Source: Ruminococcaceae bacterium R-25 (GTDB lineage: Bacteria; Bacillota; Clostridia; Saccharofermentanales; Saccharofermentanaceae). Taken from it: a DNA stretch of 64,000 nt. Location of the stretch: contig QGFZ01000002.1 in the NCBI GenBank assembly GCA_003149065.1, positions 372,001 to 436,000 on the forward strand, in the 5' to 3' direction. The translations under genes and the position numbers were made by a program. The notes under the pieces were generated by a model. The model saw only the letters and a list, made by a program, of their open reading frames with translations. It had not been told where the DNA came from and searched no databases. Each line of letters starts with the position of its first letter. Position 1 is the stretch's first letter. Positions 8,256 through 59,215 of this stretch are shown one piece after another.

Positions 8256-8400
8256 AAATCAACAGTAAAATAGACTAAGATATATCAGAGTTTGTGTAAT
8301 TTTCAGGCGTTTTTCAGGCCTTCAAATGCACAAGTCAACTTGCGACCTTGCATCACGAGTTCAACTGTATCTAAAACCTCGAAAAGCCAATTTCGATACA
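8256..8400 (+). repeat. 145-bp dispersed intergenic repeat, copy 1
   Basis: This copy aligns along its whole length with 12255-12403. Shared words include GAGTTTGTGTAATT, CAAATGCACAAG and TCAACTGTAT, and both copies end in TTCGATACA. It lies in a 381-base gap with no convincing gene. The copy is diverged from its partner but collinear with it, so it is a true repeat. Confidence 0.75.
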
Positions 8401-12254: not shown

Positions 12255-12403
12255 AAATCAGCAGAATAATTGACTAAGAAAAATCGGAGTTTGTGTAATT
12301 ATTGGGCATTTTTCAAGCCAACAAATGCACAAGCCAACTAGTGATCTTACACAACAAGCTCAACTGTATCGAAAACCTCGAAAAAATACCCGTCTTCGAT
12401 ACA
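12255..12403 (+). repeat. 145-bp dispersed intergenic repeat, copy 2
   Basis: Homologous along its length to 8256-8400, with small indels. It sits in a 431-base gap between the two-TM protein and the antitoxin gene. Beyond the repeat, the gap holds a motif copy (12508-12523) and the antitoxin promoter; no gene is visible. Confidence 0.75.
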
Positions 12404-12552
12404 CGGTCGCACTTTGGTGTATCGAACAACAACAAGAATGTTTCCTGCCCTTTATAAATACAATTAAACGCATGTTATAATCCTCGTATCTGAAAGGAAA
12501 TTCTTAGTATAGATAATAGACAGTTTTATAAACCAATAGCTTGTGTTTTCTA

Positions 12553-34184: not shown

Positions 34185-34409
34185 CCTGATTGACAAAAAA
34201 CTGTACGAAAACAGTGGATTTTGTCAATAAAATCGTCAATAAGGCCTCGGATTGACGGATTTATTGACGAAATGGCCTCAAAATGAACAGTTTTTCGTAC
34301 ACTTGCAGAATACTTCAATCGATTAACTGACTTGCAGAGCGCTATATCCGGCGAATGACTCAAACAGTGACTATTTTTTCCAAAATCAGTCACCATTTCA
34401 GTCATTCAC
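34185..34409. repeat. Nested hairpin repeat, family shared with 59 kb
   Basis: Contains hairpin arms ATTGACAAAA/TTTTGTCAAT (34189-34198, 34219-34228) and GAATGACTCAAACAGTGACT with AGTCACCATTTCAGTCATTC (34353-34372, 34388-34407; 17 of 20 paired). Blocks of 30, 18, 19 and 28 bases are identical to 59086-59215. It lies in the 620-base gap between the guaB operon promoter and glgP. Confidence 0.75.
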
Positions 34410-34437: not shown

Positions 34438-34552
34438 AGTCAACTTTTAAGCTAGCATTTTCCCGAATTTAGCTAGCAAAAAAGTTGGATTTTCGCAAAA
34501 TCCAACTTTTTACCTAGCATTTTTGGGATTTTTGCTAGCTGAAAAGTTGACT
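34438..34552. repeat. Tandem hairpin pair, period 62
   Basis: Four 20-base arms: AGTCAACTTTTAAGCTAGCA (34438-34457), its imperfect complement (34471-34490), a second forward arm (34500-34519), and TGCTAGCTGAAAAGTTGACT (34533-34552). The spacers within each hairpin are both 13 bases. Arms 1 and 4 pair at 19 of 20 positions. It lies between the 34.2-kb repeat and the glgP terminator. Confidence 0.75.
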
Positions 34553-39299: not shown

Positions 39300-40568
39300 A
39301 TGGAAGATAAAAATAAGACACTCACAGATCAGGAAAGATATGAGAGGGACAGAGCATCGGTAATGTCGATGCTGAAGTTCATTCTTATCATCGCGATCCT
39401 GGCAGGCGCCTGCTATGTAGGCAAGATAGTCGTAGTCATTCTGGTGCCGTTCCTTTTGGGATTTTTGCTCTCAAAGACTTCAGTCCTTATGGCAAAGCCC
39501 ATCTCAAAGCTCTTCGATAAGGACGCCACGAAGATCAAGCCGGGCAAGAAAAAATCGACCCACACAAAAACATCGATAGTCATCTATGTAATCTTAAACA
39601 TCGTTGTTTTCATACTTATCGTGCTCGCTTTGATAGGTCTGATCTACCAGGCAAACAGCCTTTTGGTAACTCTTGCAGACCTTGCGAAAACGATCAAGCC
39701 TGCTGAGATGGTCAACACACAGATCCTTGACCGCTTGAGCACCGAAAACGGCGGCTTTTTGACAGCTGACATGATCACATCTCTTGAAGAGAGCGTCACC
39801 AACATGGGCCAGACGATCATTAAGAACGTTCCTTCTTTCATCAACACAGCGTTCTCGTCAGTAGGAAAGCTCGTAGGAAACCTTCCTTACGGCGTATTCT
39901 TCGTAATCAGCATCCTCTTGAGCGGTTTCTACTTCATCAATGACGGTCCCACCGTCATGAAGTTCTTCGTAAAGAACACCCCAAACAAGAAGTTCAGAAA
40001 CAGGGTCTTCACGCTCTTTAACGAACTCTCCATCACGGTCTTCCGCGTACTCGGAGGTTATCTCGTACTGTTCATTATCACAGCTGTTGAATCCCTGATC
40101 GTATTCTGGTGCGCAGGCCTTCACGAATATGCGATCGTGCTCTCCATCATCACCGCACTCATCGACTTCCTGCCTGTTTTAGGCGTCAGCGCAACAATGG
40201 TACCCATGATGATCTACCAGGTCGCAAACGGCCAGTATGTTTCAGCAGCCATCCTTCTCAGCGGCCTTATCCTCATGTCGATAATCCGCCGTTTTGTTGA
40301 ACCTGCAGTGCTCGGCAAGTCCTTAAAGATGCACCCCTTGATCACGCTCATCGCAATGGCAGCAGGTGTCTACATCTGGGGCGCAGCAGGATTCCTGCTC
40401 GGACCTGTTTTGGCGATCATCATCATCCAGGTCATCAAGGTTTTCGAGATCGACAAGATGGTCGGCAAATACTTCTCGGGCGTCCTTGACCGCTTCATGA
40501 AAGACAAGAACATGAAAGAGAAGAACGTAAAGGAAAAATCCAAAGCCACTGCATCCGAAGAGGCTTGA
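39300..40568 (+). CDS. AI-2E family transporter (PerM/YtvI type)
   Basis: A 422-residue protein with about eight membrane segments typical of the AI-2E transporter family. FLLGFLLSKTSVLMAKPISK near 65, LSGFYFINDGPTVMKFFVK near 210, ALIDFLPVLGVSATMVPMMI near 290 and GKSLKMHPLITLIAMAAG near 340 match the family. Members export small compounds or act in osmotic stress; the name comes from E. coli TqsA. ATG 39300 follows AAAGGGGATAA; the frame extends 11 codons upstream. It may be co-transcribed with the two preceding membrane genes. Confidence 0.88.
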   Translation: MEDKNKTLTDQERYERDRASVMSMLKFILIIAILAGACYVGKIVVVILVPFLLGFLLSKTSVLMAKPISKLFDKDATKIKPGKKKSTHTKTSIVIYVILNIVVFILIVLALIGLIYQANSLLVTLADLAKTIKPAEMVNTQILDRLSTENGGFLTADMITSLEESVTNMGQTIIKNVPSFINTAFSSVGKLVGNLPYGVFFVISILLSGFYFINDGPTVMKFFVKNTPNKKFRNRVFTLFNELSITVFRVLGGYLVLFIITAVESLIVFWCAGLHEYAIVLSIITALIDFLPVLGVSATMVPMMIYQVANGQYVSAAILLSGLILMSIIRRFVEPAVLGKSLKMHPLITLIAMAAGVYIWGAAGFLLGPVLAIIIIQVIKVFEIDKMVGKYFSGVLDRFMKDKNMKEKNVKEKSKATASEEA

Positions 40569-40660
40569 TTTTCAAGGGCTTGCGAGTTTTTCGAGATTTT
40601 GTTCCGTGACATACTGACGACATACCCATAACGTATGATGTTGGCAAGGAGGATGAAGCA

Positions 40661-40900
40661 ATGTCTTTTAGATTGTTGATAGTCGAAGATTCACCCGAAC
40701 TGCTTGAAGCTGCGAGCGACTTCTTTCGCGAGGAAGGCGCCGGCCTCTGGAACATCGTGACCGCCTCAGACGGAAATGATGCTTTGGCCAAGGTCAACAG
40801 CGAATCTTTCGACCTCATGATCTTAGACATAATGCTCCCCGGAGCATCAGGTTTTGATATCTGCAAAGCCGCCCGCAAGATAAGCGACTGCCCGATAATT
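40661..40900 (+). pseudogene. Truncated response-regulator receiver domain
   Basis: The frame begins MSFRLLIVEDSPELLEAASD with the acidic pair (E9, D10) and phospho-acceptor D56 (LMILDIMLPGASG). It reaches SDCPII, just before the conserved Thr/Lys half of the receiver, and then continues into sequence that is the end of an opposite-strand gene. The Lys motif, the fold's C-terminal third and any DNA-binding domain are missing. AAGGAGGATGAAGCA precedes the ATG, so the truncated frame can still be translated. No histidine kinase follows. The break at 40897-40903 coincides with the 3' end of the nuclease-like gene. Confidence 0.8.
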
Positions 40901-41716
40901 TTATATCGAAACGGAATCTATTACGCTTTCCATATCCTGCTTAGTACTGATCATTGTCCCGTAAACTGCGTTGTTCAGTTTTGAAGAAAGATACCTTATG
41001 TCAAAAGGCAGATCAGTGGTGTCATGCGTGAATAAAATATCAAGCTCAGGGACAAGTCCTGCTTCTGTATAGTTGCGGTATTTAATTGCAGTAGTCCTCA
41101 GGTAGCTTGATGATTGCTGGATACCAAAATGCTCATGAATCTTGCAATTATCAAGCTCTTCGATATAGATGACAAAATCCGGATAAATAGGTTCCGGCAA
41201 TCCCTTGATCGTTACTTCCGGTTCGTATTTAAACGGAATCCCCAACTCCGTATAGAACATCGCAATCTCACGCTCCGCCGCAGAGCGGTAGTAAATACCA
41301 TTGAAAGGATGATTTAATGGTTTTGGATTTTTGGTATTGGCATCGTTTTTCAAGCTGTCAAAGTAAGCCTTGTTCATTACGACTCTGGTCGTAGCATCGA
41401 TACACAGTGTCCTTTTTACCTTGTGCGGCACACATTCCGGCAGCGGTTCGCCCTTGAAATTGGCATCCCAGATCGCTTCGTAAAGACGAAGCTTGCGCTG
41501 GATGAGATCACGCTTTTTCCAGAGAGCATAGTACCGTTTACCTTTATCAACATTTAGATCATAGCGATGCTTTCCGAAAACCATTTTAGTGACCTGAACA
41601 TCATCTTTAGAGTATTTATGCACTCTAATCTCAGGCAGCACTTCAAGCAGCTGTCTGCAGTAGTTGATTCTGAGAGCTAACAGCTCTCTTGGGATGTGTT
41701 TATCTATAAGTTCCAT
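40901..41716 (-). CDS. PD-(D/E)XK nuclease-like protein
   Basis: A 271-residue protein. The C-terminal part has RSAAEREIAMFYTELGIPFK, then EPIYPDFVIYIEELDNCKIH and EHFG. This reads as the PD...(D/E)xK fold: Asp in YPDF, with a Glu in HEHFG in the expected second strand. The N-terminal part (DKGKRYYALWKKRDLIQRKL) is helical and charged. The family is unnamed to me; similar proteins are scattered singly in clostridial genomes. It lacks a clear binding site. Its 3' end cuts the truncated response regulator and its 5' end adjoins a tandem-hairpin repeat, so it looks like an inserted gene. Confidence 0.6.
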   Translation of the reverse strand: MELIDKHIPRELLALRINYCRQLLEVLPEIRVHKYSKDDVQVTKMVFGKHRYDLNVDKGKRYYALWKKRDLIQRKLRLYEAIWDANFKGEPLPECVPHKVKRTLCIDATTRVVMNKAYFDSLKNDANTKNPKPLNHPFNGIYYRSAAEREIAMFYTELGIPFKYEPEVTIKGLPEPIYPDFVIYIEELDNCKIHEHFGIQQSSSYLRTTAIKYRNYTEAGLVPELDILFTHDTTDLPFDIRYLSSKLNNAVYGTMISTKQDMESVIDSVSI

Positions 41717-41738
41717 ATTCGAATTGTAAAGGGTATCT

Positions 41739-41997
41739 TTGTCGGTTTTGTGTTAACTTTTCCGACAATTTCCGACAAAACCCGACAAGGAAAAATGCCC
41801 GAATTTGGCTCCTCAGACGGTAAAGAAAAAATAAATATAATTACTACAAGAAAAGCATAGCGGCTTAACTGTTTTGAAAGACTCCCGGTGTAAATTTAGT
41901 GCGTAAAATAAGTGAAATGCGCACTGGATTTACACTAGAGGGCTAAAAATGTAAATTTTGTGCGTAAAACTGCTGATTTGCGCACTGATTTTGCACT
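41739..41997. repeat. Tandem hairpins, period 61
   Basis: Hairpin 1: GTGTAAATTTAGTGCG (41888-41903) and GCGCACTGGATTTACAC (41919-41935) with a 15-base spacer. Hairpin 2: ATGTAAATTTTGTGCG (41949-41964) and GCGCACTGATTTTGCACT (41980-41997), spacer 15. A further pair, TTGTCGGTTTTGT (41739-41751) and ACAAAACCCGACAA (41775-41788), lies upstream. The 390-base gap 41717-42106 otherwise holds only the terminator of the next gene. Confidence 0.75.
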
Positions 41998-42050
41998 GGC
42001 TTATATCTGCACACGCGAAAACGATTACTCTGCCCGTTATCTGTGTTTCA

Positions 42051-42082
42051 AAGAAAAACGGCTGTCTCCAACGAGGCAGCCG
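42051..42082 (-). terminator. Terminator of beta-helix protein gene
   Basis: Read leftward, CGGCTGCCTC pairs with GAGACAGCCG (42059-42068 and 42073-42082), followed by TTTTTC. Confidence 0.82.
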
Positions 42083-42106
42083 CTTGTTTTATCGATTTGC
42101 CAGCAA

Positions 42107-44092
42107 TTACAGCACTACGTTCTTGCCTTCAACATTGAGTGAAGCGAATGGGCCGGGGATGATGGCGTCTCTCTTTTCGCCGAAGTAATCGGTATCGAAA
42201 ATGATGTCGTTGCCGTCCTTGTCTTCGAATCTCTGCTGGGGTTCGAAAGCCTTACCCAAAACGTCTGTTGTAACAAGAGAAGAAGTAAAGGAGCCGATCG
42301 CGTCAGCGAGGTTGGTGTCGAGATAAACCCTGTCGCCTTCTTCGCGGACATTGACGTATACCTCACTTGCAGAATCCATGAGGAAGTTCTTCTCCTTGCA
42401 GAAGCGCTGGGCGCCGCCAAGGTATGCGTTGCCTTCGATCCAGACGGGAAGTTTATCGAAGTGGGCCTTCGCGATTTTCATCATGTCGGGTGTGTCGCTC
42501 TCGAGATCGAACTGCTTGATCCAGTCTTCGTAGAGAGGGTAGTGGTCCCATACGTGGGTGCCGACTACGCGTTCTTCTTCCCAGACGACGCCGTCGTCGA
42601 AGCGGGAGATCAGGGATTCCTTCGGGTGCTTCTGGAAGAAGATGTTGTTATAGAATCTGTCGTCGCCGTGCAGGATCGTCATGAAGCCCATGACTTCTGT
42701 CCTGTGCGGGAAGTGGTAAGGCGTGTAGCGCCAGTCGGTGCCTTCGCCTACGGATGTGAATGCACCGCAGATGAGGTTGTGGACCATTGCGACGCCCTGT
42801 GTTGCGATACGTAAAGTAGCGTCAGAGAGGAGAATGTTGTTGTCGATCAATGTAGGGCCGTGTCCGACTTCTACGAAAATATCCTCACTGCCCATGCCGC
42901 CCTTGAGGGGTTCAGCGTAATCAGGGCGCTGGTTGTCGTGAAGGAGATTGCAGGTGATTCTTGTGCCCTGTGCTTCCCAGTCTGTCCAGATGCCCATGAC
43001 GCAGTGGTGGATGTGGTTTCTCTGCATGATGACATCGATAGCTGCGTGGAGCTTGATGCCTGCAACTTCAGCGCCGCCCAATTCCATCATGTTGTTGATG
43101 TGGTGAATGTGGTTGTCTTCAATGACTGAGAAAACAGCGCCCATACGGCCGATGATGCCGCCCTGCTCGCAGTGGTGGATGTTGTTGCGGCGGATGATGT
43201 GGCTTCCGATGTTTTCCTTGAGCCAGCCGTGATACTGACCGCGGCATACTGCGTCACGCTCCATCTGTGTGGGGCTCTTAAGATGCTCGTATGTGAAGTA
43301 GTGGTTGTTTTCGGGATCTAAATACTTGCCAAGGCCGATGCCTGAGCACTTGGAGAAATAAACTTCGTTGTCTTCGATGATCCAGCCCTTTGACCAGTGG
43401 GGACCGATCATGCCTTCCTGCCATGCTGCCGGAGGAGCCCAGTTTGTTGCAGCTTTGCAGATCTTAAAGCCTCTTACGGTGATATAGTTTCTGCCTGTTT
43501 CAGCAGGGAAGAAGCACATTCTTCTTACGTTGATCTCTACCATCTCAGAGTTGGGATCAAGCCCGCCGAAGTTAGCATAGATAACGGTAAAGTCGCCGTC
43601 CTGCTCTGCGTACCACTTGTACTTTGATTCTTCCGGAACCCATGAGCACTTATAGACCTGTGCCTTGATGACTTCATCGATTGATGCCGCTTCGTAGAGT
43701 CTTCTGTCGTTGATGTAGACGCAGCCGACGTGTCTGTTCTTGCCTGCGAAATACCAGTCGCCGTAGCAGAAAGTGGTGTAGGGGTTATAGTCGCCGAAGA
43801 TCTTGTTGTCGACCTTGCAGCAATAGACTTCGCCGTCGTACTGCTGCCAGTTGGAGATCTGCTCTGCGCCTGAGATTGTTGCACCCAAAGGCTCATCGCT
43901 CACGTATGTGATGCGCGCATCTTCGGTACCGCCGTTTACGGGCGAAACATATTCTCTGTAAAGACCGGGCGCAACGTGGACTGTGTCGCCAGGCTGTGCG
44001 ATCTTTGCTGCTTCGGAGATGGTGCCGAAATGCTTTTCCTTGTTGCCGTCGCCTGAGTTGTTAAGGAATTTGATGTCTACATAAAGTTCCAT
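42107..44092 (-). CDS. Right-handed parallel beta-helix protein (probable carbohydrate-active)
   Basis: A 661-residue protein. The start LYVDIKFLNNSGDGNKEKHF, GTISEAAKIAQPGDTVHVAP and GLYREYVSPVNGGT is typical of DUF1565/GH141-like beta-helix enzymes. Repeating coil rungs follow (NNIHHCEQGGII, DNHIHHINN, QRNHIHHCVMGIW, CNLLHDNQR), the usual Asn/His-rich ladder. No signal peptide is present, so it acts inside the cell, unlike most relatives. It may be a glycosidase or lyase on plant polysaccharide fragments; the reaction is not assignable from sequence. It is a single-gene unit with its own terminator. Confidence 0.8.
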   Translation of the reverse strand: MELYVDIKFLNNSGDGNKEKHFGTISEAAKIAQPGDTVHVAPGLYREYVSPVNGGTEDARITYVSDEPLGATISGAEQISNWQQYDGEVYCCKVDNKIFGDYNPYTTFCYGDWYFAGKNRHVGCVYINDRRLYEAASIDEVIKAQVYKCSWVPEESKYKWYAEQDGDFTVIYANFGGLDPNSEMVEINVRRMCFFPAETGRNYITVRGFKICKAATNWAPPAAWQEGMIGPHWSKGWIIEDNEVYFSKCSGIGLGKYLDPENNHYFTYEHLKSPTQMERDAVCRGQYHGWLKENIGSHIIRRNNIHHCEQGGIIGRMGAVFSVIEDNHIHHINNMMELGGAEVAGIKLHAAIDVIMQRNHIHHCVMGIWTDWEAQGTRITCNLLHDNQRPDYAEPLKGGMGSEDIFVEVGHGPTLIDNNILLSDATLRIATQGVAMVHNLICGAFTSVGEGTDWRYTPYHFPHRTEVMGFMTILHGDDRFYNNIFFQKHPKESLISRFDDGVVWEEERVVGTHVWDHYPLYEDWIKQFDLESDTPDMMKIAKAHFDKLPVWIEGNAYLGGAQRFCKEKNFLMDSASEVYVNVREEGDRVYLDTNLADAIGSFTSSLVTTDVLGKAFEPQQRFEDKDGNDIIFDTDYFGEKRDAIIPGPFASLNVEGKNVVL

Positions 44093-55192: not shown

Positions 55193-55306
55193 GTTTCACT
55201 TTTTGTCACCGTCTTTCCTGTTTTCGTTGTACAAAAAGTTGAACTGAGCCCTGATTTCAACTTTTTGTCACTGATTTTCGGGTTTTCGTGCAACAAAATG
55301 TGAAAC
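55193..55306. repeat. Tandem hairpin pair, period 63
   Basis: GTTTCACTTTTTGT (55193-55206) and ACAAAAAGTTGAA (55231-55243); then TTCAACTTTTTGT (55256-55268) and ACAAAATGTGAAAC (55293-55306). Each hairpin has a 24-base spacer, and both spacers contain TTTTCGT. Arms 1 and 4 pair at 13 of 14, arms 2 and 3 perfectly. It directly follows the methyltransferase gene; 55181-55577 has no gene. Confidence 0.75.
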
Positions 55307-55366
55307 AACTTCAGCAGTTGATGGTTGGGTGAAGGGTGTTCGTGCAACATGACGTGAAAACCCTGG

Positions 55367-55478
55367 GTTGCTCGTTTTGTAGACGATTTTCCGATTTCCG
55401 TCTGCAGAATGAGCAAAAACGCTTGGATTTGCACGTTTTGCAGACGATATCACGATTTTCGTCTACAAAATGAGCAAC
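55367..55478. repeat. Tandem hairpin pair, period 64
   Basis: GTTGCTCGTTTTGTAGACG (55367-55385), CGTCTGCAGAATGAGC (55399-55414), GCACGTTTTGCAGACG (55431-55446) and CGTCTACAAAATGAGCAAC (55460-55478). Both inner spacers are 13 bases. Arms 1 and 4 pair at 18 of 19. It sits 60 bases after the previous pair, with unrelated sequence. Confidence 0.75.
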
Positions 55479-59085: not shown

Positions 59086-59215
59086 CCTGATTGACAAAAA
59101 ACTGTACGAAAACAGCTCAAACTGTCAATAAAATCGTCAAAATGGGCATTTTGTGGTGAAAATGACTCAAACAGTGACTCAAAATTCAAAATCAGTCACC
59201 ATTTCAGTCATTCAC
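59086..59215. repeat. Second copy of the 34.2-kb nested hairpin family
   Basis: Four blocks of 30, 18, 19 and 28 bases are identical to 34185-34409 in the same order; about 95 bases of the longer copy are missing. The hairpin arms AATGACTCAAACAGTGACT and AGTCACCATTTCAGTCATT are kept. It lies between gpmI and a leftward lipoprotein gene; 58965-59272 has no gene. Confidence 0.75.

Follow-up and report, generated by a model that had tools for sequence, protein, structure and literature searches.

A nuclease-like gene family of Clostridia that often lies beside its own short palindromic arrays: a putative gene-plus-repeat system

In a 64,000-nt stretch of the 3.07-Mb genome of Ruminococcaceae bacterium R-25 (QGFZ01000002.1:372001-436000; hereafter the window), I found that a nuclease-like gene next to a pair of tandem inverted repeats belongs to a family of gut and rumen Clostridia. 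Its members often lie beside short palindromic arrays, and the arrays are typically of a sequence of their own. This looks like an undescribed gene-plus-repeat system. That the nuclease and the arrays belong together is strongly supported by counts of loci, controls and shuffles.

As listed in Table 1, the locus reads from left to right: a transporter gene, which I take to be of the AI-2E family, a cut response regulator gene, the gene for a 271-aa protein, a two-repeat array, and a GH120-type gene. The array consists of two 48-nt copies (41888-41997) that are 79% alike and spaced at 61 bp, and is placed 5′ of the nuclease gene. Thus, tandem hairpins do flank the gene on the side away from the regulator, as a preliminary description of this DNA had it. 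The GH120 gene adjoins the nuclease gene in seven loci; among these, L105 and L196 represent a single place.

Table 1. Coordinates of the features in the window (position 1 is the first letter of the 64,000-nt stretch)
Feature	Position	Strand	Remarks
AI-2E-type transporter gene (presumed family), left border of the locus	39300..40568	+	Orthologues 72% (G007), 67% (G004) and 72% (G040), used for synteny
Response regulator, 5′ fragment	40661..40902	+	Rest and next kinase gene missing; PF00072 to position 75/111; homology stops at 40902
Nuclease-like gene, 271 aa	40901..41716	-	Hypervariable N-terminal beta-hairpin (29-49), long helix, C-terminal PD-(D/E)XK-fold domain (~128-257)
Promoter-proximal repeats	41739..41788		TTGTCGG at 41739-41745; CCGACAA at 41762, 41772 and 41782 (+ strand); read from the sequence
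Array, inverted repeat 1	41888..41935		Arms 41888-41903 and 41920-41935, 88% complementary
Array, inverted repeat 2	41949..41997		61 bp from inverted repeat 1
GH120-type glycoside hydrolase gene, right border of the locus	42107..44092	-	PF21258, E 4.9e-39
Solo array, L002 type	34188..34304		L002 is the same-genome nuclease closest to the window's (48% identical protein)
Partial solo array, L002 type	59089..59140		
Solo period-62 array	34438..34552		Similar to the array beside the L079 nuclease of another species
Solo period-62 array	55193..55307		Similar to the array beside the L136 nuclease of another species
Solo period-61 array	55367..55478		Similar to the array beside L136
Solo arrays or remnants with L007-type half-sites	12365-12428; 8366-8400		

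The TTGTCG(G)/CCGACAA repeats, which lie about 10 bp apart near the promoter, are common to nearly the whole clade, whereas the arrays are not. By eye, the TTGTCG core was seen upstream of 22 of the 23 clade members viewed, L141 being the one without it. Several members of other clades (L004, L005, and L008) have TGAGACT..AGTCTCA boxes in the same place. A common regulator is suggested. Another dispersed hairpin element, with variants of AGTCAAGG..CCTTGAC with GCAGGTGC, recurs near nuclease genes, in the flanks of L005, L116, L175, L210, and L219.

How often do such arrays accompany the gene? An array was called where two successive inverted repeats have a 9-mer arm in common, one mismatch being allowed, within 600 bp upstream or 400 bp downstream of the gene. 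From the 149 matches of a search of 40 genomes, 97 loci were examined, mostly by score (99 loci minus the two duplicates L061 and L086); 95 are of the genus of the window genome and two are of genome G030. An array was found beside the gene in 67 of the 97 loci and in none of the 97 shuffled flanks. The control consisted of 96 intergenic stretches from 20 hand-chosen 20-kb pieces, taken from 12 genomes of the genus at a distance from family members. Arrays were called in six of them at 600 bp per stretch, as against 1000 bp per locus (Fisher p 5.5e-21 against 67/97), and in seven when the control was repeated at 1000 bp. With a 10-mer arm, 52/97 loci were positive against 0/576 flank shuffles, with controls of 6/96 (600 bp) and 7/96 (1000 bp); the window's own array escapes this setting. 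The loosest setting gave 84/97 loci and 10/97 shuffles, with controls of 16/96 (600 bp) and 23/96 (1000 bp). Thirty of the 97 loci have no array with the 9-mer setting, and 13 have none even with the loosest, which also fires on shuffles and controls. Three of the six control arrays match a nuclease-side array of the same genome by BLAST (L155/L095, L160/L149, and L169/L102), and a fourth, L161, has an arm 10-mer in common with L071.

A similar picture was obtained with 77 of 79 loci of named relatives, which are partly the same DNA as the 97-locus set (the partial hits L248 and L249 were dropped, while the broken gene L245 was kept). Here an array lies beside the gene in 40/77 loci against 0/77 shuffles, and downstream of it in 32/77. 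Arrays occur on both sides in 11/77; they are alike and in direct orientation in ten of these and different in L234. Outside the genus, 38 of 50 matches were examined, and an array was found in 19 against none of the 38 shuffled. The preliminary description had proposed to check whether homologues lie next to period-62 hairpins elsewhere; they often lie beside tandem inverted-repeat arrays, in 67 of 97 loci and in 19 of 38 outside the genus. The period itself holds as the median of the window's clade, while the window array has 61 and other clades have other periods.

The family is multi-copy. The window genome has ten members (nine when searched with a single protein), and no second member within the 64-kb window was listed in the 40-genome search. 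That search, which included the window genome, found members in 25 genomes: all 24 of the genus and one of the 16 others. Across the class, 291 genomes were sampled, of which 22 match at E 1e-15; seven of these are of the genus, five of the 15 others with matches have six or seven copies, and one member of the genus in this sample, G196, gave no match. The relatives of the protein come from Saccharofermentans and other Ruminococcaceae or Clostridia assemblies, many of them from rumen or gut. By eye, five genomes have a member behind what seems to be the same neighbour gene with differing arrays (L073, L075, L110, L113, and L114). Thus, the specificity seems to change at a fixed site.

The arrays vary with the proteins. 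Similar arrays were found in 16/25 cross-genome pairs whose proteins are more than 70% identical, in 4/64 pairs at 60-70%, 26/400 at 50-60%, 8/619 at 40-50%, 4/393 at 30-40%, and 9/3035 below 30% (duplicate proteins were removed for this and the following residue-agreement analysis only). Similarity of the hypervariable N-terminal beta-hairpin is the best predictor of array similarity. With C-domain identity matched, agreement over residues 29-49 was 0.327 for array-similar pairs against 0.225 for the others (16/465 pairs, p 1.1e-4), and in further matched sets it was 0.323 against 0.259 (9/160, p 0.033) and 0.405 against 0.303 (4/51, p 0.08); since the pairs overlap, these p values are guides. 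When labels were permuted, the regression coefficient was reached in 0/1000 permutations for the beta-hairpin 29-49 and in 3/1000 for residues 1-28. The helix at residues 57-75 was considered as a second reading part; it is variable, yet unlinked to array similarity (310/1000 permutations). Linkage by descent alone would account for part of the correlation. Between the window and L219, the final 235 residues of the GH120 protein are 92% identical, against 51% for the nucleases, and the arrays are different. Of 120 same-genome pairs, none has arrays in common, which is not significant as evidence of orthogonality.

Are the repeats hairpins or duplex sites? The array periods lie mostly near 41, 52, 62, 73, 84, and 95, in steps of about one DNA turn; off-step values among the 69 arrays are 44, 48, 58, 70, 71, and 78. 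The median period is 62 in protein clade A, to which the window protein belongs, 64 in B, 73.5 in C, and 52 in D (the clades were read off the protein tree, and 13 arrays fall in no clade). The clustering of periods beats 2000/2000 smeared sets in each of three groups, with loci within a clade not independent, and the outside-genus group shows a like clustering. The best steps were 10.8, 10.85, and 11.55, the last for the named clade-A loci, which are nearly all at 62 and 73; a step of 10.5 gives R of 0.74, 0.78, and 0.87. In clade A, each arm also contains its half-site a second time, 12 bp further along (353 matches, as against 51 after shuffling). Among 63 L007-type hairpins with 43 changed cells, 39 changes break the pair, three give G-U, and one is compensated against 0.70 expected; these hairpins were picked by likeness to one consensus, a selection that disfavours doubly changed pairs. 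Since the periods step by turns and compensatory changes are not in excess, the arrays resemble protein sites phased on duplex DNA more than they do hairpins. A reading as RNA or single-stranded DNA structure is not supported by the phasing, by the chance level of compensation, or by an Rfam search of 40500-42200, which gave no match. Nor do the repeats look like those of a CRISPR array, which are direct, identical and parted by unique spacers: the conserved units are inverted arms, and the loops and spacers are partly common between copies.

The AlphaFold2 model of the window protein has a pLDDT of 89. Residues ~128-257 match PD-(D/E)XK nucleases with a middling Z (best 8.1 over 94-101 residues). 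The top structural rows are mostly PD-(D/E)XK enzymes; I-Bth0305I comes first, with Bax1 and others within 1. Foldseek alone gave no match under E 0.001 for this model, and the N-terminal domain alone has no clear fold match in a structure search (best Z 5.6). E148, D180, and E195 are present in the nine members inspected (9/9); among 44 sequences, E148 and D180 are invariant and E195 is found in 98%. None of the 44 has the lysine expected in the (D/E)XK motif; position 197 is F, L, Y, or C instead. Thus, the preliminary description's term "PD-(D/E)XK-like" is apt at the level of the fold; the lysine is missing, and nuclease activity is uncertain because of its absence. K163, which is invariant in the 44 sequences, might substitute for it. 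Conservation is highest in the catalytic core and lowest in residues 31-75 (the beta-hairpin and the start of the long helix, confidently modelled). No Pfam or NCBIfam family fits the protein, and no transposase profile appears among the hits to E 1 in 9/9 members. The C-terminal end of the PADLOC model PDC-S68 matches 9/9 members (best E 8.9e-27; window protein 1.8e-8), and a phage Holliday-junction-resolvase family matches weakly in 5/9 (best E 3e-4). The same nuclease domain was also seen inside a 1221-aa open frame (G006:C27:5803-6090), perhaps a PDC-S68-type protein.

The arrays are not confined to the genes. The window array type occurs at six places in its own genome, five of them without a family member within 30 kb, in addition to a 28-nt partial match. 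For three more types in this genome, matches of E 0.01 or better mark 16, 4, and 14 places, counting the place beside the gene itself. The four types searched were picked for clear arrays, and all four are dispersed (intergenic position was judged by eye); for each, solo arrays outnumber genes. The L177 type recurs at at least eight further places in each of the genomes G326 and G327. Array stretches match in 6/98 same-genome pairs against 4/1372 pairs between genomes. The solo arrays of the window at 34438 and at 55 kb gave no match among the own-genome arrays tested.

By eye, the copies lie in unrelated flanks, often right after a terminator-like hairpin, and different types adjoin. The copies have a unit of ~100-118 bp in common, and 4/9 G326 copies examined match G327 copies nowhere outside this unit. 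In a comparison of the nine G326 copies with the ten of G327, three pairs are orthologous with common flanks (L361/L360, L363/L364, and L369/L371), the nuclease locus L357 matches L356/L358, L381 matches a nuclease-side flank, and L359, L365, L367, and L370 are copies without a common flank. One array type has sharp ends, from CTACTGAAAT to ATTTCAGTAG, in four copies, at which no target-site duplication was seen by eye. Some L001- and L002-type copies have more flank in common than the array itself; thus, the dispersed unit is not always a bare array. A search for occupied and empty array sites in close relatives (L202/L204 and L176/L177) gave indels of other genes only, which is no proof of array movement.

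I lean, by a little, towards the reading that gene and array are the two halves of one cognate system, in which each nuclease would recognise the arrays of its own type and either spread or maintain them. The co-variation of protein and array supports binding, while cleavage, copying, and mobility are inferred. On the anatomy and the co-variation, the protein would recognise its own array as double-stranded DNA, the variable N-terminal beta-hairpin probably reading the half-sites, and several copies may bind cooperatively on one face of the helix. The PD-(D/E)XK-fold domain might then nick or cut DNA at or near the bound arrays, and repair of the break, or some strand-transfer step, might copy arrays to new intergenic sites and keep the copies alike. 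As a result, the gene would stay put and the arrays would spread. RAYT transposases and REPINs follow the same logic; here an unrelated enzyme would carry it out, with duplex DNA as its substrate. The proposal is weakest in two respects: the motif lysine is missing, and no polymorphic insertion was seen. Whether the family is, more broadly, a widespread undescribed genome parasite of Clostridia or a domesticated mobile system, with a fast-evolving beta-hairpin, private phased arrays that are copied, and up to 13 members per genome, seems to me evenly balanced.

Several other explanations were weighed against this one. The protein could be a sequence-specific DNA-organising or regulatory factor (a nucleoid, insulator, or operator binder) whose fold derives from a nuclease; the arrays would then be its binding platforms, spread by other means. 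Phased duplex sites, the missing motif lysine, and the frequent position of arrays after terminator-like hairpins (by eye) would all suit such a factor. However, E148, D180, and E195 remain conserved although the reading part is variable; a pure binder would have no need of this, and the unrelated flanks of the copies together with the sharp ends of one type call for some mobiliser. I therefore regard this explanation as unlikely.

Quite unlikely, too, is a homing-type selfish nuclease that cuts chromosomes without the element and is copied by repair, the arrays being its ends or solo recombination remnants. The top structural match is a homing endonuclease, I-Bth0305I, albeit tied with Bax1 and others within 1, and in 10/77 named loci the gene is flanked by the same array on either side, in direct orientation. 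Against this, the genes are kept at a syntenic site while the arrays change (by eye), and solo arrays are more numerous than genes for each type searched. Homing enzymes, as a rule, do not leave the target intact within the element, and here the arrays stay whole beside the gene.

A defence system, in which foreign DNA is the target of the nuclease and the chromosomal arrays tether or control the enzyme, would fit the match of the domain to the C-terminal end of PDC-S68 in 9/9 members; it is very unlikely, since the PDC-S68 models are ~1200-1270 positions long and the dispersed copies would be left unexplained. It is highly improbable that the arrays are transcribed as a structured RNA, antitoxin, or guide, in the manner of type III toxin-antitoxin or OMEGA systems. 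Tandem hairpins do lie directly upstream of the nuclease gene, a layout like that of ToxIN, in which an endoribonuclease toxin is paired with a repeat RNA as antitoxin, but the period steps by about one DNA turn, compensatory changes are at chance level in the one type analysed, Rfam has no match at 40500-42200, and arrays are also found downstream of the gene (32/77 loci) and far away from it.

It remains to account for the broken regulator. The PF00072 match (E 6.1e-15) of the ORF at 40661-40984 breaks off at position 75 of the 111 in the profile. When the DNA was aligned locally with four intact regulators of 226 aa, the alignments began in the promoter region (40582-40604) and all four ended exactly at 40902; a fifth comparison (L284) likewise ends there, and the stop codon of the nuclease gene sits at this junction. 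Thus, it was correctly noticed in the preliminary description that the receiver domain breaks off after SDCPII, where it meets the 3′ end of an opposite-strand gene, and that the rest of the regulator is missing. The last residues of the window nuclease, after ISTKQ, are unlike those of its relatives; such tails vary.

In genome G040, the order is AI-2E gene, intact regulator (226 aa), a gene for a 532-aa protein judged by eye to be kinase-like, nuclease, array, and GH120 gene, as pieced together from L219 and L286, which overlap on one contig. L171 and L189 have the order GH120, nuclease, AI-2E with no regulator match, and in G004 (L253) the AI-2E gene is next to the GH120 gene with neither nuclease nor array between them (by eye). 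From these three layouts, the nuclease and its array are a unit belonging to the AI-2E/GH120 intergenic site. Since G040 keeps regulator, kinase, nuclease, and array in order, it is probably the window that carries a deletion. In the simplest history that the sequences offer, a deletion probably removed the 3′ part of the regulator gene and the kinase gene, ending at the 3′ end of the nuclease gene. The junction (40902-40912) carries TATATCGAAAC, which is identical to an L007-type half-site at 10/11 positions; matches at that level number nine in the window against 2.97 expected, and several lie within array remnants. These matches are only suggestive of a deletion that broke within an array or its remnant.

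The preliminary description had instead supposed that nuclease and hairpins arrived as one unit and cut the regulator. The unit is supported, being absent as a whole in G004 and having its arrays beside homologues, but that it cut the regulator is not supported; an uninterrupted regulator does exist in a relative, G040, and nuclease and array are present beside it there too. Although the end of the regulator coincides exactly with the nuclease stop codon, insertion into the regulator gene is hardly credible, since regulator, kinase, nuclease, and array lie side by side and intact in G040 and the nuclease occurs at this site with no regulator match in L171 and L189. Response-regulator-like sequences were also seen near L218, L111/L225, L077, and L080; these are 65%, 54%, 31%, and 34% identical to the window fragment, the L111/L225 match covering only 61 residues.

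How does this compare with known systems? With I-Bth0305I, other PD-(D/E)XK or Vsr-like nucleases, Bax1, TnsA, and Hjc, the likeness is in the fold of the catalytic domain. I-Bth0305I, an EDxHD enzyme, forms a dimer on its target, which is nearly 60 bp long (PMC3943268). Unlike the I-Bth0305I group, the present family has a different N-terminal domain and a tie to dispersed arrays, and does not lie in an intron. With PDC-S68, the likeness is in the C-terminal nuclease domain (9/9 members), and the difference is in the length of ~1200-1270 positions of the PDC-S68 models; the name PDC-S68 was not found in the literature searched, mostly journals open without subscription. BIMEs are mosaics of REPs. 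Here, too, arrays of one type stand next to arrays of another at several places (by eye), which resembles BIMEs, but the repeats and the enzyme are different.

A search of open papers, by titles and the starts of abstracts, found no description of a system of a nuclease plus array. Such a system, if true, would account for short repeats in a number of Clostridia and would offer a natural series of pairs of protein and DNA site for learning how the beta-hairpin encodes recognition. For many of the genes the predicted target is already at hand beside them, which makes the link readily testable.

The closest parallel is the RAYT/REPIN pair. The RAYT gene is linked to its own dispersed short palindromes and stays in place, while protein and repeat co-evolve (PMC3116915, PMC8266576, and PMC8049555), and RAYTs, or TnpA-REP, are HuH enzymes that process single-stranded REPs (PMC8266576). 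The present genes likewise lie beside palindromic repeats of their own type (67/97 loci against 6/96 or 7/96 in controls), and the repeats are dispersed in the same genome for 4/4 array types searched. As for the GTAG or CGTC tag that stands beside the palindrome in REPs, one array type was seen by eye to end in CAGTAG, and none was noticed in the L001, L002, and L007 types. The proteins are not RAYTs: no HuH (Y1) transposase profile was found in 9/9 members, and the model has a PD-(D/E)XK fold. They differ further in that the arrays look like helically phased duplex sites and in that several members with different arrays occur in one genome. REP-type repeats have known partners in HuH enzymes; if a second enzyme, unrelated to these, were tied to dispersed repeats of its own, the partnership of gene and repeat would have arisen more than once.
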